From: an uncultured Actinomycetes bacterium
GTDB taxonomy: Bacteria; Actinomycetota; Actinomycetes; Nanopelagicales; Nanopelagicaceae
Assembly (NCBI GenBank): GCA_903933585.1
Contig: CAIZKO010000076.1
Span: 1 to 48,366, forward strand
DNA length: 48,366 nt
Reading direction: 5' to 3'
A program made the position numbers and the translations under genes. The notes under the pieces were generated by a model that made no database searches, was not told the DNA's origin, and saw only the letters and a list, made by a program, of their open reading frames with translations. Shown here one piece after another: positions 2 to 12,877 of the stretch (position 1 is the stretch's first letter; each line of letters starts with the position of its first letter).

Positions 2-541
2 GTAACTCCGCATCATCTGATGCTCACCGACGATTTAGCGGAGAGCTACGATCCGGTTTATAAGGTGAATCCACCTCTACGCACCGCGGTCGATGTGCAA
101 GCGCTGCGCGAAGGTTTAGCGGATGGCACTATCGATATCGTTGCCACCGATCACGCTCCCCATCCGGCAGAAGATAAAGATTGCGAGTGGAGCGCTGCGG
201 CCTTTGGAATGATCGGGCTGGAGACCGCTCTATCAATCGTCGCCAAGGCAATGATTGAGACTGGCTTAATGGATTGGACAACGCTCGCGCAACGCATGTC
301 GACAACGCCCGCCGCGATTGGTGGTTATGAAGATCATGGTGCGATAACTGTAGGTAATTTCGCTAATTTCGTCGTAGTGGACCCGTCTGCTAATTGGAAG
401 GTAGATCGCAACAATCTCCTCTCCAGAAGTTCCAATACCCCTTTCCATGACTTCACTCTTCCGGCCAGCGTTGTTCACACCTTCTTCCGCGGAGTGCACG
501 TTCTCAAGGATGGTCAACTGACGGGATTAAAATATGAGTAA
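2..541 (+). CDS. pyrC: Dihydroorotase, C-terminal part (gene enters from the left edge)
   Basis: Catalyses the reversible cyclisation of N-carbamoyl-aspartate to dihydroorotate, step three of UMP synthesis, in the cytosol. The frame is open from base 2, so the ATG at 20 in the ORF track is internal. The first residues read VTPHHLMLTDD, a conserved block of dihydroorotases, and ATDHAPHP further on is the amidohydrolase metal/catalytic Asp motif. About 180 C-terminal residues are present of a usual 420-440, and the N-terminal metal-binding part lies outside the window. The stop overlaps the carA start (ATGAGTAA), so it is the upstream member of the pyr operon. Identity is secure. Confidence 0.95.
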   Translation, partial: VTPHHLMLTDDLAESYDPVYKVNPPLRTAVDVQALREGLADGTIDIVATDHAPHPAEDKDCEWSAAAFGMIGLETALSIVAKAMIETGLMDWTTLAQRMSTTPAAIGGYEDHGAITVGNFANFVVVDPSANWKVDRNNLLSRSSNTPFHDFTLPASVVHTFFRGVHVLKDGQLTGLKYE

Positions 542-1653
542 AGCATTTTTAGTACTTGATGATGGGACCATCTTTGAGGGCGAGAGTTGGGCTTGTAGCG
601 GAGAAGCCTTCGGAGAAGCGGTCTTCTCGACAGGAATGACTGGGTATCAAGAGACCTTGACTGATCCTTCGTATCACAAACAGATTGTCATAATGACCGC
701 TCCGCACATAGGTAATACCGGAATGAATGACATCGACAAGGAGTCTGAGAAGATCTGGGTCGCTGGCTTTGTGGTTCGCAATCCCTCTCCACGCGTAAGC
801 AATTGGCGGTCTCAATACTCGCTAGAGAGCTCACTCTCTGAAGCAGGAGTTGTAGGAATTCAAGGAGTGGATACGCGCGCAATTACTCGTCACCTGCGCG
901 ACCGAGGTGCGATGCGGATGGGAATCTTCTCCGAGACGACTTTGACGCGTTCTGAAATGATCATCAAGGTACGCGCCACTGACGCTATGGCGGGCGCCTT
1001 CCTAGCTAACGACGTGACGACGAAAGAGAAATACGTGGTTAGCCCTCCCGCTGGAACCGAGGTGCGCTTTCGCGTCGCGGCGATTGATTTAGGTATAAAA
1101 AATGCAACCCCTAGATCAATGTCAGAAAGAGGTATTGAAGTAACGGTCTATCCCCTTAGCACAACGGCCGAAGAGATTAAGGCGTCGCACCCTGATGGGC
1201 TCTTCATCTCAAACGGTCCGGGAGATCCGGCGACCATGACCCAAGTTGTCGATCTCGTACGGGAATTTTTGACTGATGAAATACCAACCTTTGGAATCTG
1301 CTTCGGCCACCAAATTTTGGGTCGCGCTTTGGGTTTTGACACTTATAAGTTGCCTTTCGGCCACCGCGGAATCAACCAACCCGTAAAGAATTTGCAGAGT
1401 GGAAGAATCGAGATCACAGCACATAATCATGGCTTTGCCGTAGCAGCTCCATTAGAGGGAAATTTCCATACCGCCTTCGGCGCGGGTCATGTGAGCCACA
1501 TCTGTCTCAATGATGGCGTCGTCGAGGGACTTGAATTAATCGAGCGTCCAGCATTCAGCGTTCAGTACCACCCCGAATCCGCAGCCGGCCCTCATGATGC
1601 CGCATACCTCTTCGACCACTTCGTAGAGCTGATGAGTAAGGCAAAGGTTAAAA

Positions 1654-1661
<8 letters not shown>
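534..1661 (+). CDS. carA: Carbamoyl-phosphate synthase small (glutaminase) subunit
   Basis: Hydrolyses glutamine and channels ammonia to CarB for carbamoyl phosphate, the shared precursor of pyrimidines and arginine. It has 375 residues, a normal length. The N-terminal half is the CarA-specific domain ([17 protein letters not shown]). The C-terminal half is a class I glutamine amidotransferase with nucleophile elbow GICFGHQ (Cys about 256) and the His/Glu of QYHPES (about 346/348). The start overlaps the pyrC end by 8 nt and the end overlaps carB by 8 nt, so translation is probably coupled through the operon. Confidence 0.97.
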
Positions 1662-4916
<3,255 letters not shown>

Positions 4917-4920
<4 letters not shown>

Positions 4921-5765
4921 TCAACTCAAAAGCCGTTCAACTCTCTGCAGAGGTTGTCTCAAATAAGAAAGTCGGCGCGTATCACCACATGGTCTTTGCG
5001 GTCGGTGATATGGCGGCCAGCTGCCGTCCTGGAAATTTCGTTGCAATATCAGTTGGTGGAGCCAGCTCCTCGCTGATATTGCGCCGTGCCTTCGCAATAT
5101 ATCGTGCATCTCTCCGATCCGATGGAATGGGTTTGCTGGAATTAGTGATAGCTCCACAAGGCAGTGGAAGTAAGTGGTTGGTCGCGCAAGAACCCGGCGA
5201 TCGTGTTGATCTTATCGCCCCTCTTGGTACATCTTTCGGCATTCCCAAAGAGCCTATCAACGCCCTTTTGGTCGGCGGAGGATATGGTTCTGCACCACTT
5301 TTTTCACTCGCTGAAACTTTGAAGTCGCGCGGATGCCGGGTCGATATGGTCCTTGGGGCCAGCACTGCGGGCAAGATTTATGCACCACTCGAGGGAAAGC
5401 GTTCCGTCAATTCTCTGACAATTACCACCGACGACGGCAGCGCAGGGATAGCGGGGCGCGTGAGCGATGTGCTACCGAAACTTATTGCTGAACATGACGT
5501 AGATGTGATCTACTCGTGCGGGCCGATGGCGATGTTAGAAGCCATCACGTTGATTTCGCAAAGAACCGATGTGCTTCATCAGTGTTCTGTCGAGGAGTCT
5601 ATGGCCTGCGGTATTGGAGTGTGCATGACCTGCGTTCTTCCCGTCGAAGGCGAAGACGGAGTCATTCGTATGACTCGAAGTTGCGTCGAGGGTCCAGTCA
5701 TGGATGGCAACAAAGTACTCTGGAACACATCCCGTGAGATTCCAGATGGGGTGTGGGGAAAATGA
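4917..5765 (+). CDS. pyrK: Dihydroorotate dehydrogenase electron-transfer subunit (PyrK)
   Basis: FAD and [2Fe-2S] subunit that passes electrons from the class 1B dihydroorotate dehydrogenase PyrD to NAD+. The 282 residues show a ferredoxin-reductase FAD domain ([10 protein letters not shown]), an NAD domain ([22 protein letters not shown]) and a C-terminal cluster site with Cys at about 231, 236, 239 and 256 ([10 protein letters not shown]...RSCVEG). It starts in the ATGA overlap with carB and ends in an ATGA overlap with pyrD. Its presence next to pyrD tells that the enzyme is NAD-linked, not quinone-linked. Confidence 0.95.
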
Positions 5766-6694
5766 GTATTAACTTCAGCACCTCGATCGGCGGTGCGTTC
5801 TTCGCTAATCCTATTTTCACGGCCTCTGGATGTGCCGGTTCAGGCAAAGAACTATCACATTTCTTTCCACTCACCTCGCTAGGCGCGGTAGTCACCAAGT
5901 CGATCATGGTAAAACCACGTAGCGGGCGTGCGACACCGCGCATGGCCGAGACGCCTAGTGGAATGTTGAACTCGATTGGATTGCAGGGTCCAGGAATTGA
6001 CCTATTCCTTGAGAACGATATCCCTTGGTTACGCGAGCAAGGCGCACGGATTATCGTAAGTATCGCGGGGGAGAGCGTCGAGGACTATGCGGTACTTGCC
6101 CGTAAATTACGTAACGTTGTAGGCATAAGCGCGCTGGAGGTCAACATCTCCTGTCCAAATGTGGAAAATAGAGGGCAAGTTTTCGCCTGCCATCCAGATA
6201 CTGCAGCTGCCGCTATCGCTGCGGTACGGCGAAATATTGGCGGAGAGTTGCCGATCATTGCGAAACTCTCACCCGATGTGACGGATATAACCGCTATCGC
6301 AGATAGCGTCATCGTAGCGGGCGCAGATGGCCTTGCACTTATAAATACCCTGTTGGGCATGGTCATCGACACCACTTCCATGCTGCCTAAGTTATCGCAG
6401 AAGACCGGGGGACTTTCAGGCCCAGCGATTCGCCCCATCGCAGTACGCGCGATCTATCAGGTGCGGGCCGCTTTTCCTAAGATTCCCATTGTCGGAATGG
6501 GTGGAGTCACCAATGGTCGCGACGCCTTCGAGCTTGTCCTTGCGGGCGCAGATGCGGTTTCAATTGGAACGGCTACCTTCGGCAATCCGATGGCGGCTAT
6601 GACAATCAAGAACGAACTAGAGGAACTCTGCGAAGCGCGTGGATTTAATTCATTCTCAGATGCAGTTAGTTACGCCCACAGAGTGGAGGCATAA
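5762..6694 (+). CDS. pyrD: Dihydroorotate dehydrogenase, class 1B catalytic subunit
   Basis: Oxidises dihydroorotate to orotate in the cytosol with FMN, partnered by PyrK. The protein shows the FMN-barrel motifs NISCPNVENRG, AKLSPDVTD, INTLLGMVID, KTGGLSGPAIRP and GMGGVTNGRDA, which match the 1B rather than the membrane class 2 type. I chose ATG 5762, which overlaps the pyrK stop as ATGA behind a G-rich ribosome site. The ORF track begins three codons earlier at GTG 5753. The stop TAA shares a base with the pyrF ATG. Confidence 0.95.
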   Translation: MSINFSTSIGGAFFANPIFTASGCAGSGKELSHFFPLTSLGAVVTKSIMVKPRSGRATPRMAETPSGMLNSIGLQGPGIDLFLENDIPWLREQGARIIVSIAGESVEDYAVLARKLRNVVGISALEVNISCPNVENRGQVFACHPDTAAAAIAAVRRNIGGELPIIAKLSPDVTDITAIADSVIVAGADGLALINTLLGMVIDTTSMLPKLSQKTGGLSGPAIRPIAVRAIYQVRAAFPKIPIVGMGGVTNGRDAFELVLAGADAVSIGTATFGNPMAAMTIKNELEELCEARGFNSFSDAVSYAHRVEA

Positions 6695-7398
6695 TGTCAA
6701 CCCTTAATTCGCCCATCATATTGGCGCTAGACACCGATGAACTTGAAACTGCAATTCAGTGGATCGAAGCTACCGCTGGTAGCGTCGACGTATATAAGGT
6801 TGGGCTGGAATTCTTTCTCAAACATGGCGCTGCGGGCCTGCGTGAATTACGAAATACCAGCAACTTTGAACTCTTTTTAGATCTCAAACTACATGACATC
6901 CCCAATACCGTGGCCGGTGCGGTGCGATCCGTTCGCGATTTACAACCGCGTTTTCTCACACTGCATGCTGCAGGCGGGGCGGCAATGATTAAAGCGGCGG
7001 CCGAGGCTGGACCTACCATATCGATTACGGCCGTAACCGTGTTAACGTCGCTCAATCAAGCAGAATTGTCGACTATGGGAATAGCTCTAACCCCATTAGA
7101 TTTCGCGGTTTCTCTCGCAGATAATGCGGTCGCGTCAGGGGCTCGCTCAATCGTCTGCTCTCCAATGGAAGTGGCAGCAATTCGCAGTGCAGTTGGAAGT
7201 GGAGTAAAAATTATTACTCCCGGCGTTCGACCCGCCGACTCCGAACTTGGAGATCAGAGCCGAACAATGACCCCGCGCGAGGCCATTGTTGCTGGTGCTG
7301 ATTTTCTCGTAATAGGTAGGCCCATAACTTCGTACTATGCGCGATCTCCACAAGCGATGCGTGAGAGATCTCAACAAATTTTGGAATCCCTCTCTTGA
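6694..7398 (+). CDS. pyrF: Orotidine 5'-phosphate decarboxylase
   Basis: Last step of UMP synthesis. The 234-residue protein has the catalytic DLKLHDIPNTV signature (DxKxxD), ILALDTDELE at the N-terminus, and the phosphate-binding ITPGVRP and ADFLVIGRPI loops at the C-terminus. This is the compact type 1 enzyme. Several actinobacteria such as Mycobacterium carry the longer type 2 form. A GTGGAGG ribosome site precedes the ATG, which overlaps the pyrD stop as TAATG. The stop overlaps the TTG start of the next ORF. Confidence 0.95.
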   Translation: MSTLNSPIILALDTDELETAIQWIEATAGSVDVYKVGLEFFLKHGAAGLRELRNTSNFELFLDLKLHDIPNTVAGAVRSVRDLQPRFLTLHAAGGAAMIKAAAEAGPTISITAVTVLTSLNQAELSTMGIALTPLDFAVSLADNAVASGARSIVCSPMEVAAIRSAVGSGVKIITPGVRPADSELGDQSRTMTPREAIVAGADFLVIGRPITSYYARSPQAMRERSQQILESLS

Positions 7399-8270
7399 CA
7401 CCCACGCCTCCGCCGCAACTTTCAGTAGCCCAGCGGCAGGCCGCCCTGGAAAAGGCGAAAATTTCTCGGCAAGAGCGCGCCGAGGTGAAGCGATTGATAA
7501 CACTGGGGGAGATCAACATATTCGATGCAATAAACGATCCGCGCGAATCAATTCGTCGCATGAAGGTGATAGAGCTACTCTCAGCAATTCCCGGAGTGGG
7601 CAAGGCGCGCGCTACTTTAATCATGGAGCGTCGGAATATCTCGCCTACCCGTAGAATCGGTGGCCTAGGGCATCTGCAATTAAAAGCGTTGGGAAAGGAG
7701 TTGGCTGTGGCGAAGGTGGATCCAATCCGCGGAAAACTGATAGTCATCTCTGGTCCCGGCGGAGTCGGCAAGAGCACCATCACCGCACAACTACGGAACG
7801 ACCCTAGATTTTGGATCAGCGTCTCCGCCACCACCCGAGACCCTCGACCCGGCGAGCGCGAAGGTGTCGACTACCTCTTTCTTACCCCAGAGAAATTTCA
7901 GGAGATGATTGAAACCGGAGAGTTTTTAGAGTGGGCTGAATTTGCCGGAAATCGTTACGGAACCCCGCGCGCTCCAGTAGAAGAGTGGCGCACGCTAGGA
8001 AAGCACGTGATCTTGGAGATCGAAATAGATGGGGCCCGACAGGTCCGATCTCGTGAGGCGGGGGCTACCTTGATCTTTATCGCGCCTCCTTCCTGGGAGG
8101 AGCTCGTCCGACGCCTTACCAGTAGAGGCACAGACTCCCCAGAGCGGCGCGCCGCCCGCCTAGCCCTTGCTGAGCAAGAGATGGCCGCAGCGAGCGAATT
8201 CGATGCAATTCTCGTAAATGATGACGTCGAGGGTTTGATCGAGCAACTGGTATCCTTGGCGACTGCTTAA
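7395..8270 (+). CDS. gmk: In-frame fusion: actinobacterial integration host factor (mIHF) + guanylate kinase
   Basis: Residues 1-104 are the nucleoid protein mIHF/sIHF: QRQAALEKAKISRQERAEVK helix, PGVGKARATLIMER helix-hairpin-helix and RRIGGLGHLQ. Residues about 110-291 are guanylate kinase (GMP + ATP to GDP), with P-loop GPGGVGKST from residue 120, VSATTRDPRPGE and GVDYLFL. The usual neighbours mihF and gmk are here one uninterrupted frame. The TTG start overlaps the pyrF stop (TTGA). An in-frame GTG at 7707, exactly where gmk would begin, sits 6 nt after AAAGGAG, so free Gmk may also be made. Both domains look intact. A missed stop or sequencing error cannot be excluded from one sequence. 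Confidence 0.9.
   Translation: MTPTPPPQLSVAQRQAALEKAKISRQERAEVKRLITLGEINIFDAINDPRESIRRMKVIELLSAIPGVGKARATLIMERRNISPTRRIGGLGHLQLKALGKELAVAKVDPIRGKLIVISGPGGVGKSTITAQLRNDPRFWISVSATTRDPRPGEREGVDYLFLTPEKFQEMIETGEFLEWAEFAGNRYGTPRAPVEEWRTLGKHVILEIEIDGARQVRSREAGATLIFIAPPSWEELVRRLTSRGTDSPERRAARLALAEQEMAAASEFDAILVNDDVEGLIEQLVSLATA
7691..7709 (+). promoter_or_regulatory. Internal ribosome binding site and GTG start for a free guanylate kinase
   Basis: The segment GGGAAAGGAGTTGGCTGTG inside the fused ORF places a strong Shine-Dalgarno core (AAAGGAG, 7694-7700) 6 nt before an in-frame GTG at 7707. Translation from it would give a 187-residue guanylate kinase, the normal family length, beginning VAKVDPIRGKL. 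This looks like the relic, or still working, gmk start now lying inside a fused frame. Confidence 0.6.
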
Positions 8271-8291
8271 CTGACGAATAGAGGGACACAC

Positions 8292-8582
8292 ATGTCTGCT
8301 GAACTTACCGATGGAATCACCCATCCTTCGATCGATGAACTTCTCGATGCTGCTGGATCTAAGTACAGCCTCGTTCTCTACGCTGCCAAGCGCGCCCGCC
8401 AGATCAACGCTTACTACTCCCAATTGGGAGAGGGTCTACTTGAGTATGTAGGACCACTCGTTGAAACCTATGTACACGAGAAGCCACTCTCAATCGCACT
8501 CCGCGAAATTAATCAGGGCCTTCTCACCATTGAGAATTTGGAACCTGTCGCTGAGGCCACGAGCTCAGAAGTTTCTGCTTAA
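8292..8582 (+). CDS. rpoZ: RNA polymerase omega subunit
   Basis: Small subunit that helps assemble RNA polymerase by chaperoning beta-prime. The 96-residue protein shows the core [30 protein letters not shown] and the actinobacterial tail [23 protein letters not shown] about 8 nt upstream of the ATG is the ribosome site. It follows gmk by 21 nt and precedes coaBC by 10 nt, the usual actinobacterial order gmk-rpoZ-coaBC-metK-priA. Confidence 0.96.
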
Positions 8583-8592
8583 ATAGAAGAAG

Positions 8593-9801
8593 ATGTATCC
8601 ACGCGGGCGTGAAATCGTCCTCGGTGTATCCGGGGGAATTTCGGCCTATAAATCCTGCGATCTGCTACGCAGGTTACAAGATCTCGGCTTCTTAATTACA
8701 GTCATCCCCACCCGATCAAGTCTCAATTTTGTCGGACTTTCAACCTGGGAGGCTCTCTCTGGACGCCCGGTTCCCACCGAACTTTGGAACAACGTTCATC
8801 AGGTTCCACATATCGCTCTAGCGAAGCAAGCCGATGCCATACTCGTTGCTCCTGCGACTGCAGACATCATGGCAAAAGTTGCAACCGGTATCGCCGATGA
8901 TCTCTTAACCAATGTCATTCTCGCCAGCACCGTCCCTTTGATCTTTGTACCTGCAATGCACTCCGAGATGTGGCTTAACTCCGCAACACAGGCAAATGTG
9001 CAACTTCTTCGAAGCCGCGGTCACCTCGTCATTGAACCCGACTCCGGAAAACTCACCAGCGGGGATGTAGGCGTTGGCAGATATCCTGATAGTTCAAAGA
9101 TAGTCGATTGCCTGACCACAACGCTGCAAAGTCGCGCCGATCTTCGTGGCCGCTCCGTATTAATTAGTACCGGCGGAACGCGAGAGGCGATCGACCCGGT
9201 CCGCTTTATCGGTAACAACTCCTCCGGTCGGCAAGGTTATGCCTTGGCTTATGCAGCCGTTGCACGTGGAGCACAGGTCACGCTAGTAGCCGCGAACTGC
9301 GAGATCGCCGATATTGAGGGAGTCAAAACGGTACACGTCACGACAGCGCTTGAGATGCAAGCTGCTCTGGAATCTCACTTCGAAAGCGCGGATGTCGTAA
9401 TCATGGCCGCTGCGGTCGCTGATGTTCGTCCCAGCGTCTTTAATTCGACCAAGATCGCTAAGGAGGATCTCTCGGCGATCCCCGTAGTTAAAAATCCAGA
9501 TATCACCAAGGAGCTTTCTCGGCGAAAGAGTTCCCAGATCATGGTCGGCTTCGCGGCTCAGACCGCCGAATCAAGAGCCGAGGGGTTGGCGCTGGCATCT
9601 GCAAAGATGAAAGATAAGGGGCTAGATCTAGTTTATTTCAATGATGTATCTGGCGGTGCGATTTTCGGCTCAGACAAAACGGCAGGAGTCATCTTGACTG
9701 CCACAGGTGATACCTACGAGTTTAACTCTGGACTTAAAGTGACACTCGCCAACAGGATTCTAGATTTGGTCTGCGATAAGTTAAGTTATCCCAATGACTA
9801 A
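8593..9801 (+). CDS. coaBC: Bifunctional phosphopantothenoylcysteine decarboxylase / phosphopantothenate-cysteine ligase
   Basis: Carries out two consecutive steps of coenzyme A synthesis. The N-terminal CoaC flavoprotein domain (about 1-180) has [16 protein letters not shown], the [19 protein letters not shown] block and PAMHSEMW. The C-terminal CoaB domain (about 185-402) has [29 protein letters not shown] and the dinucleotide/CTP-binding segment, ending with MVGFAAQT and [11 protein letters not shown]. At 402 residues it is normal. The stop lies 8 nt inside metK. Confidence 0.96.
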
Positions 9802-10987
9802 GCGACTATTCACCTCCGAGTCCGTTACCGAAGGCCATCCCGACAAGATGGCAGATCAAATTTCCGATGCGATCCTCGACTCGCTTCTTAGCCAAGATGC
9901 CAAGAGTCGGGTAGCAGTCGAAACCCTCATCACCACTGGGCAGGTCCATGTCGCCGGTGAAGTCACGACCAAGGGCTACGCCGATGTTATGGGTATCGTT
10001 CGCGACACCGTGCTTGAAATTGGTTATGACTCATCTGCTAAGGGCTTCGACGGTAATTCGTGCGGAGTTTCAATCTCTCTCGGTCAGCAATCAAGCGATA
10101 TCGCCCAAGGCGTCAACTCTGCAATGGAGAACCGCATTTCATCTTCCATCGACCCGCTCGATGCACAAGGTGCGGGAGATCAAGGCTTGATGTTCGGATA
10201 TGCCTGCGAAGATACCCCAGAACTGATGCCAATTCCTATCTCCTTAGCTCATCAATTGGCGCAGAAACTCTCCTCGGTACGTAAATCAGGCGAGTTAGAT
10301 TACCTCCGCCCAGATGGAAAGACTCAGGTCACGATTGAATACGATGGCGACCGTCCAGTAGCTCTCAACACCATCGTCATCTCCTCGCAACATGCTGCGC
10401 ACGTGGATATCGATAGCGTTTTAGCGCCAGATGTCGAGCGTTTGGTAATCCGTCCGGTTCTAGCTGGACTGGCATTAGATCATTCAAATGTACGTATCCT
10501 GATTAACCCCACGGGGCGCTTTGTAACTGGCGGGCCGATGGGCGATGCTGGATTAACTGGCCGGAAGATCATCGTTGATACTTACGGGGGAATGGCGCGC
10601 CATGGTGGCGGAGCATTCTCTGGAAAAGATCCTTCCAAGGTCGATCGTTCGGCTGCTTATGCAATGCGTTGGGTGGCGAAGAATGTCGTCGCCGCCGGAC
10701 TCGCCTCTCGCTGCGAAGTTCAGGTCGCTTACGCTATTGGAAAAGCACAACCAGTCGGGCTCTTCGTCGAGTGCTTCGGTACCGAAAAGATCCCAGTTCT
10801 GCAGATTGAAGCGGCGATCGAAACGGTCTTCGATCTACGTCCAGCTGCTCTCATCAGAGATTTAGATCTGCTCCGCCCTATCTATCAAAAAACCGCAAGC
10901 TATGGACACTTCGGACGTGAACTTCCCGCTTTTACATGGGAGAAGAGTGATCGAAGTGCTCTCCTGCAAAAGGCCGTTAAGGGTTAA
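9794..10987 (+). CDS. metK: S-adenosylmethionine synthetase
   Basis: Makes S-adenosylmethionine from methionine and ATP, releasing phosphate and pyrophosphate. The 397-residue protein carries the family signatures [20 protein letters not shown] (N-terminal His and metal ligands), [12 protein letters not shown] and the P-loop-like [19 protein letters not shown]. The length is standard and no key motif is missing. It overlaps coaBC by 8 nt and is followed 6 nt later by priA, so it is co-transcribed with both. Confidence 0.97.
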
Positions 10988-10993
10988 TTCGAC

Positions 10994-12877
10994 GTGGCTG
11001 CAGTAAAGCCACTCAAACTGCGCCGAGAGAAGGTGCAGAGTTTTCGCCCGCGTGCTTCATCAAATCCCATCGCCCGTGTACTCGTTGACCACCAGATTGT
11101 TCATCTGGAACAAGTGTATGACTATGAGGTCCCTGAACTATTTGATGCAACCGCATCCATAGGCGCACTCGTTGAAGTGGAATTCGGCCATATTCTCACA
11201 CAGGGTGTGATTCTTGAGAGGCGAGAGACTTCAGAGAGCGCCGGTAATCTCAAGGAGATACTCAAGGTGCTGAGCATCGAGCCATATGTTTTACCTGATC
11301 AGTTAGCAAACATTGATACCGCCGCAGCCTTGTATGGTGCCAAGCCGTGGGATTTTTTGCGAAGGTGTGTTCCACCATTTTCTAAGGTGGGTGAGCGGAA
11401 TTTTCGAAGTAACCCAACCCTGCCAGAGGGTAAGGTGATATCTAATATCTCGCTCCCGGAATCTTTACTAGCGATATTGCAGGGTTCAACCAGACTCACC
11501 TGCGCCATTGAGCTTCCTCCTTCTGCACCATATTGGAATCTGGTAGCAGCTATTGCTCTCGAGCGAAGCCACAATGCTTCAGTACTCGTGTTACTTCCCA
11601 ACGAAAGGGAGATGTCTCTTCTCGAGACCGCGTTCCACGAATTTGGCTGCCCTCTCATAGTTATTGCGAGCACGGCTGGTAAGAGTGATCGCTATCAAAA
11701 CTATCTCAAAAGCCGCTCCGCAACACCCGTGATTGTTTTAGGCACAAGAAGTTCAGTACTGCACTCTCTCTCACCAGAGGCAACTGTGCTAGTCGTGGAC
11801 GATATGGATGAGTCACACTACGAACGCCACAGTCCCACCTGGAACACCCGCGATCTGATCAAATTGCGAGAGGATGATCTCTCGGTTATTTATCTCAGCA
11901 CTTCAATTGGCTTAGAAACCGCCCGTCGAGTTTCACATCACTCGTTGCCCCTCTATCGATTCCCAGCATCGCAACCACCTCGATTTCACAGCGCAAGCTC
12001 TCCCCAGGGGAGCGACTATTTTTCGATCATCCGTGAAGGACTCACCAAAGGCGCTGTTCTGGTTAGCGTCGGTGCGACCGGATATGTGACTTCATTCTCC
12101 TGCCAGAAGTGTCGCAACATCGCTCTCTGCTCTTGCGGTGGGAAGCTCTATTTTCCGGCCCGTGGGGTAACGCCTCGCTGTGCAACGTGCGACACTGAAT
12201 ATATAGAGTGGTGCTGCCCGTGGTGTCAGGAGAGCAAACCCCGAATAGTGAAGAGCGGGGTAATCCGCAGGGCAGAGGAGTTCGGACGCGCCTTTCCGCG
12301 CTATTCCATACTGACTTCATCTGCATCCAACCCCATTGCCCAATTACCAGAGGGAGTGCATTTAGTTCTTAGCACCCCAGGGGTGGAGCCGCGCGGAGAG
12401 TACGCAGCGATTATATTTCTAGATTTGGAAGGTCGACTACTTCGTACAACGCTGCGAGCGACAGAGGAGTTGCGACTGCATATCTGCAGATCGCTCTCCA
12501 TGCTACGCCATGGTGAAGACGCCTACTTTGCGCTACCTCCATCAGATCCCTTCTTGCAATCAATTTTGCGGGGGAAGCCCTTGGGGGCGGCGGAGCGCGA
12601 AGTTGATGAACGAGATGGCGCCCACCTTCCTCCAAACTATTGCGCATTGCTCGTTTCTGGAGAGCGCGTAGAGAATGTGAAAGTTCTCCTCGCCAACGTT
12701 TCTCAGATTGAACTGCTCGGCCCCTTTCTTAGGGAAGGAAAGAAGACCATCCTGGTGAAAGCGCCACTCGAAAGTCAGCTCGAGATTGTGCGACTCCTCT
12801 CTCATGTAAATCGTGTCAATAGCATGCGTAAAGAGCCACTTCTGAGCTATCAGATCAACCCGTATTCTCTGAATTGA
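10994..12877 (+). CDS. priA: PriA-like primosomal protein lacking helicase ATPase motifs
   Basis: Homologue of the replication-restart protein PriA, starting at GTG 6 nt after metK. The N-terminal DNA-binding domain (VLVDHQIVHLEQVYDYEVPE...GALVEVEFG) and the zinc module (CQKCRNIALCSCGG...CATCDTEYIEWCCPWC, about residues 370-415) are kept. The expected Walker A (GxTGSGKT) is replaced by unrelated sequence and the DEEH box reads VVDDMDESH. An ATPase-dead PriA is typical of actinobacteria, so this is lineage-normal rather than decay. It probably acts in DNA binding or restart as a scaffold, not as a helicase. Confidence 0.9.
   Translation: MAAVKPLKLRREKVQSFRPRASSNPIARVLVDHQIVHLEQVYDYEVPELFDATASIGALVEVEFGHILTQGVILERRETSESAGNLKEILKVLSIEPYVLPDQLANIDTAAALYGAKPWDFLRRCVPPFSKVGERNFRSNPTLPEGKVISNISLPESLLAILQGSTRLTCAIELPPSAPYWNLVAAIALERSHNASVLVLLPNEREMSLLETAFHEFGCPLIVIASTAGKSDRYQNYLKSRSATPVIVLGTRSSVLHSLSPEATVLVVDDMDESHYERHSPTWNTRDLIKLREDDLSVIYLSTSIGLETARRVSHHSLPLYRFPASQPPRFHSASSPQGSDYFSIIREGLTKGAVLVSVGATGYVTSFSCQKCRNIALCSCGGKLYFPARGVTPRCATCDTEYIEWCCPWCQESKPRIVKSGVIRRAEEFGRAFPRYSILTSSASNPIAQLPEGVHLVLSTPGVEPRGEYAAIIFLDLEGRLLRTTLRATEELRLHICRSLSMLRHGEDAYFALPPSDPFLQSILRGKPLGAAEREVDERDGAHLPPNYCALLVSGERVENVKVLLANVSQIELLGPFLREGKKTILVKAPLESQLEIVRLLSHVNRVNSMRKEPLLSYQINPYSLN

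Follow-up and report, generated by a model that had tools for sequence, protein, structure and literature searches.

A fused integration host factor–guanylate kinase gene in an actinobacterial family and a predicted internal start for the free kinase

In the 48,366-nucleotide stretch of DNA analysed here (hereafter the window), the genes for the actinobacterial integration host factor (mIHF) and for guanylate kinase (Gmk) share a reading frame, raising the questions of whether the two proteins are truly joined, how the joining came about and whether a free kinase is still made from the fused gene. The initial annotation had placed an mIHF and a complete Gmk in a single frame, and profile matches bore this out with exactly the same coordinates (Table 1): the frame is uninterrupted, both domains score above their curated cut-offs and the guanyl_kin match covers positions 1–178 of the 180-position profile. 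Pfam searches with the same ORF returned H2TH_5 and Guanylate_kin. The mIHF half matches in sequence the Streptomyces coelicolor protein SCO1480 (4ITQ) and the mycobacterial mIHF (6TOB), and the closest solved fold for the Gmk half, by structural comparison, is that of Mycobacterium tuberculosis Gmk (1S4Q). An in-frame GTG preceded by AAAGGAG had also been reported at the junction, and both elements are indeed there, separated by a 6-nt spacer (TTGGCT). The predicted masses are 32.2 kDa for the fusion and 20.7 kDa for the product starting at this GTG; the computed isoelectric points describe a very basic mIHF half (pI 11.1) and an acidic Gmk half (pI 4.95).

Table 1. Features of the fused locus and its immediate neighbours, in window coordinates
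Feature	Coordinates	Strand	Remarks
pyrF, upstream neighbour	6694..7398	+	4-nt overlap with the fusion start
mihF-gmk fusion gene	7395..8270	+	291 aa, TTG start, TAA stop; start overlaps the pyrF stop (pyrF end at 7398)
mIHF (actinobacterial integration host factor, H2TH) domain, residues 7–103	7413..7703	+	NCBIfam actino_IHF (NF041260), 91.7 bits (curated cut-off 60)
Internal Shine-Dalgarno sequence AAAGGAG, within the fused frame	7694..7700	+	SD energy -8.5 (fusion start -3.3); conserved in sub-branch
Internal in-frame GTG, predicted free-Gmk start	7707..7709	+	codon 105; NTG at 105/106 in 47/53 group A sequences
Flexible junction, residues 105–110	7707..7724	+	AlphaFold2 pLDDT <50, flanked by two well-predicted domains
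Guanylate kinase domain, residues 113–289, P-loop GPGGVGKST	7731..8261	+	guanyl_kin (TIGR03263), 218.9 bits (curated cut-off 160.45)
rpoZ, downstream neighbour	8292..8582	+

The source genome (G000) is a 1.53-Mb draft in 135 contigs, a degree of fragmentation that could favour an assembly or sequencing error having deleted a stop codon. The likelihood of such an error is practically nil: dozens of independent assemblies, including several single-contig genomes, have the same uninterrupted architecture, and this clade-wide conservation rules the artefact out. A comparison with homologues, proposed at the outset as a way of looking for the missing stop between mihF and gmk, found it absent from 83 of the 105 family loci inspected and from every genome of the same genus with a full-length match, whose frames are all stop-free. 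In the sample taken from the order (151 genomes, all of one family, f1), most genera carry the fusion, many single-contig genomes among them; at the 105 loci it was found in 11 genera (g1, g2, g3, g4, g5, g30, g32, g34, g35, g37, g39), the other 22 loci, from six genera (g6, g31, g33, g36, g38, g40), having split genes. The fusion is therefore real. The fused gene and Gmk are each single-copy in G000, and mIHF scored above the cut-off once per genome in all 61 sampled genomes of the order, with one additional sub-threshold match of 20 bits in G093. No second mIHF was found elsewhere in these 61 genomes, nor a second Gmk in G000. In the fused genomes, no mIHF other than the fusion was thus detected.

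Comparative sequence analysis indicates strong purifying selection on both domains and decay of neither: among close pairs, several of which have saturated synonymous sites, the median dN/dS is about 0.04 (mIHF) and 0.035 (Gmk). In 79 fused sequences, the GxxGxGKST P-loop of Gmk and the tested Arg, Tyr and Glu catalytic columns are invariant or almost so, as are Arg25, Arg28, Arg86, Gly90, Gly92 and Gln95 of mIHF. In mycobacterial mIHF, an arginine stretch, RR-x-R, is important for DNA binding. In the H2TH region of the window's sub-branch (group A, defined below), its first two arginines are kept in 53/53 and 50/53 sequences, and the third, unlike in mIHF Rv1388 and sIHF SCO1480, has given way to G, A or Q, so that DNA affinity may differ. 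AlphaFold2 returned two confident domains (mean pLDDT 88, pTM 0.63), which the model suggests are globular units linked by a short flexible segment, in an uncertain relative orientation. A programmed frameshift that would free mIHF was also considered but finds no support in the stop-codon counts, out-of-frame stops around the junction being about as frequent as expected.

Does the fused frame still yield a free kinase? Within a codon alignment of the 83 fused genes, two groups were analysed: group A, the window's sub-branch (g1, g2, g32, g34 and g39; 53 sequences), and group B, its sister genera (g4, g30, g5 and g37; 26 sequences). In group A, residue 105 or 106 is encoded by ATG, GTG or TTG in all but six of the 53 genomes. 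Where residue 105 is Val or Leu, the codon is GTG or TTG in 35 of 43 sequences, against 9.4 expected from the codon use of each gene itself (p~2e-16); the bias persists after dereplication at 80% identity (29 of 36 against 8.0 expected, p~2e-13), and this position is the most NTG-biased of the 42 V/L-rich columns. The codon of Glu102, which supplies the GAG of the Shine-Dalgarno (SD) sequence, is GAG in 48/53 sequences (background 0.54, p~9e-9). SD pairing energies average -7.4 kcal/mol at the junction, whereas the 796 other in-frame NTGs have a mean of -2.7 kcal/mol (p~2e-20). For the window's gene, the values are -8.5 at the internal site and -3.3 at the fusion start, and the internal SD beats the best SD of the fusion start in 37 of the 40 group A genes compared. 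These are signals at the synonymous level that protein function, judging from the alignment, does not explain, and the retained gmk start proposed in the initial annotation thus finds support as a selected feature of the window's sub-branch. None of the NTG, GAG or SD signals is present in the 26 sequences of group B, eight of which have an ATG close to the junction without an SD. These ATGs (EF-M-K/N, at g30 loci L135-L138, L140, L141, L143 and L144) may be decayed starts. We infer that group A makes free Gmk besides the fusion, the free form probably being the more abundant since its SD sequence is the stronger. Where the sister genera lack this start, the fused gene probably yields no free Gmk, and the fused kinase would then have to suffice for GDP synthesis.

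Whether mihF and gmk are fused or split, the family keeps the gene order carA-carB-pyrK-pyrD-pyrF-mihF-gmk-rpoZ-coaBC-metK-priA, and a TTG or GTG at the fusion start position is kept in near relatives. The carA-to-priA run is extremely compact in the window (534-12877), with overlaps of a few bases such as 1654/1661, 4917/4920, 7395/7398 and 9794/9801. In M. tuberculosis, mihF, gmk and rpoZ act as a single transcription unit, and deletion of mihF required gmk and rpoZ in trans (PMC6155035).

The initial annotation had attributed the fusion to an apparent loss of the mihF stop; as a simple, local event, such a loss is not supported. Most split relatives have the two genes in different frames, where the loss of a stop alone would not join them; an in-frame stop separates the two genes in only a few (L156 and L159 of g33, L160 of g40). 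Stop loss is thus one possible route to the fusion among others. A tree of nine neighbourhood genes (3748 columns) gathers all of its fused f1 genomes in a clade of 29 rows, with the split genera g6, g40, g38 and g31 outside this clade and the split genera g33 and g36 nested within it. Monophyly of the fused f1 genomes, imposed as a constraint, was rejected on the nine-gene tree (AU p=0.0008), whereas the short mIHF+Gmk tree did not reject it (p=0.075). Taken together, the two results leave either one fusion followed by later splits or several fusions. Horizontal transfer is not indicated, the mIHF+Gmk tree broadly tracking the nine-gene tree. Present in most genera of the family and in two further families of the class, the fusion is old and recurrent rather than a recent stop-codon loss in a single genome.

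Two further families of the same class, f36 and f34 (genus g103), carry mIHF and Gmk fused at the same locus. As in f1, the domain order is the same, in one open frame and in the same neighbourhood; they differ from the f1 fusions in their distant position in the tree, in their junctions and in having no internal SD or start evident on inspection, and both are apparently independent of f1. The loci of f36 (L184-L191) and of f34 g103 (L192-L193) appear to represent separate fusions, those of f36 having an unusual P-loop, GPTAVGKGT, with Gly instead of Ser after GK, and a divergent mIHF half. Elsewhere in the class mIHF may be missing altogether: searches with NF041260 detected none in G040, G198 and G246 (f5), G229/G339/G370 and G386/G423/G437 (f34 g67 and g114) or G295 (f39), and PF22525 likewise detected none in G040, G198, G246, G229, G370, G423 and G295. 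These genomes are from actinomycetes and are mostly small; at the two loci read directly (L237 and L238), gmk follows pyrF almost immediately. This pattern suggests that a protein indispensable to mycobacteria has been lost repeatedly.

We consider it likely that the mIHF-Gmk fusion serves as the cell's sole mIHF, accompanied by free Gmk in group A, with two largely independent domains. The sequences show that mihF and gmk, neighbours in a conserved gene run, merged into one frame early in the family and that, in group A, selection maintains the gmk ribosome-binding site and start codon inside the fused frame. According to our proposal, the 32 kDa protein would sit on the nucleoid through its H2TH region and act as the mIHF of the cell, free Gmk would be the second product, and the short flexible linker would allow the domains to work without crosstalk. 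The main benefit of the fusion would be to save an intergenic boundary and to fix co-expression in a small genome. In the sister genera, the internal start has decayed, which would leave all Gmk carried on mIHF. A DNA-binding nucleotide kinase is plausible on the strength of the conserved residues and of precedent: msIHF of M. smegmatis is essential, is believed to bind as a monomer and yields functional fusions to fluorescent proteins (PMC10028186), a precedent for mIHF tolerating attached proteins.

Alternatively, the internal GTG and AAAGGAG could be a relic, no longer used, of the start that gmk had ancestrally, the fusion being the only product. The decay of the start in g4 and g30 without visible consequence would fit this, but a relic leaves unexplained why the NTG, the GAG and the SD strength are conserved at synonymous sites among genomes at ~55-80% protein identity, and we regard it as highly improbable. 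Post-translational cutting of the long product within the linker, which would make the fusion a precursor of separate mIHF and Gmk, is also unlikely. Residues 105-110 are predicted to be disordered and the linker sequence varies between genera, as a cleavable segment might; against this, the linker is short, the junction alignment has no conserved cleavage motif apparent across genera and msIHF tolerates attached proteins.

Crosstalk between the domains is possible, and the fusion might be a regulatory device in which GMP, GDP, ATP or an alarmone bound to Gmk alters DNA binding by mIHF, or DNA alters the kinase, letting the nucleoid sense purine supply. Such a device appears improbable to us given the flexible junction, for which the AlphaFold2 model predicts no fixed domain interface, and given the free Gmk start kept in one sub-branch and the split genera nested among fused ones, which suggest that the link is dispensable; moreover, M. 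tuberculosis reportedly controls its Gmk differently from other Gram-positives (cited in PMC6892785). In its favour are the repeated origin of the fusion (f1, f36 and f34-g103), the high constraint on both fused domains, the opposite charge of the two halves and the lower stable RNA and reduced expression of some ribosomal genes upon mIHF depletion in M. tuberculosis (PMC6155035). A more specific version, in which the attached Gmk signals the purine-nucleotide state to the chromosome or focuses GDP synthesis on the nucleoid and the internal start sets the ratio of free to tethered kinase, is speculative and quite unlikely. An effect of the covalent link other than co-expression is as yet unsupported; the occurrence of the fusion in three families could just as well reflect a function.

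Compared with known proteins, the mIHF half resembles mIHF Rv1388 and sIHF SCO1480 (NF041260) in its full-length domain match, its Arg-Arg and PGVGK/GLG motifs and its position ahead of gmk-rpoZ (PMC6155035), and differs in that each of those is a free protein of ~105 aa whereas the fusion always bears a C-terminal kinase. The kinase half is by sequence a complete bacterial Gmk (TIGR03263; M. tuberculosis Rv1389, 1S4Q) with all tested P-loop and catalytic columns; unlike Rv1389, it has an N-terminal DNA-binding domain, and a free form would exist only if the internal start is used. Genes with nested in-frame starts, such as cheA, infB and clpB, encode a long and an N-terminally shortened product from one frame. 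The fused gene shares the single frame, the two starts and the long and short predicted products with them, but here the short form would be a complete enzyme and the extra N-terminus derives from what was once a gene of its own. Each of the two domain families is well known. A literature search found no description of an mIHF-Gmk fusion, of its recurrence or of a selected internal start, although domain databases may already list the architecture; in the literature searched, all three are thus apparently undescribed.

Mycobacteria cannot live without mIHF, and Gmk is an essential enzyme; in the fused genomes, the cell's only mIHF would be obligately tied to the GMP kinase. Genes of this kind should not be annotated as plain 'guanylate kinase'. 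The start codon preserved inside a fused gene offers a clean comparative case, and the sister genera, predicted to have both products, the fusion only or split proteins, constitute a natural experiment. With such a lineage, one may ask whether it matters to the cell that a metabolic enzyme is tethered to the nucleoid.
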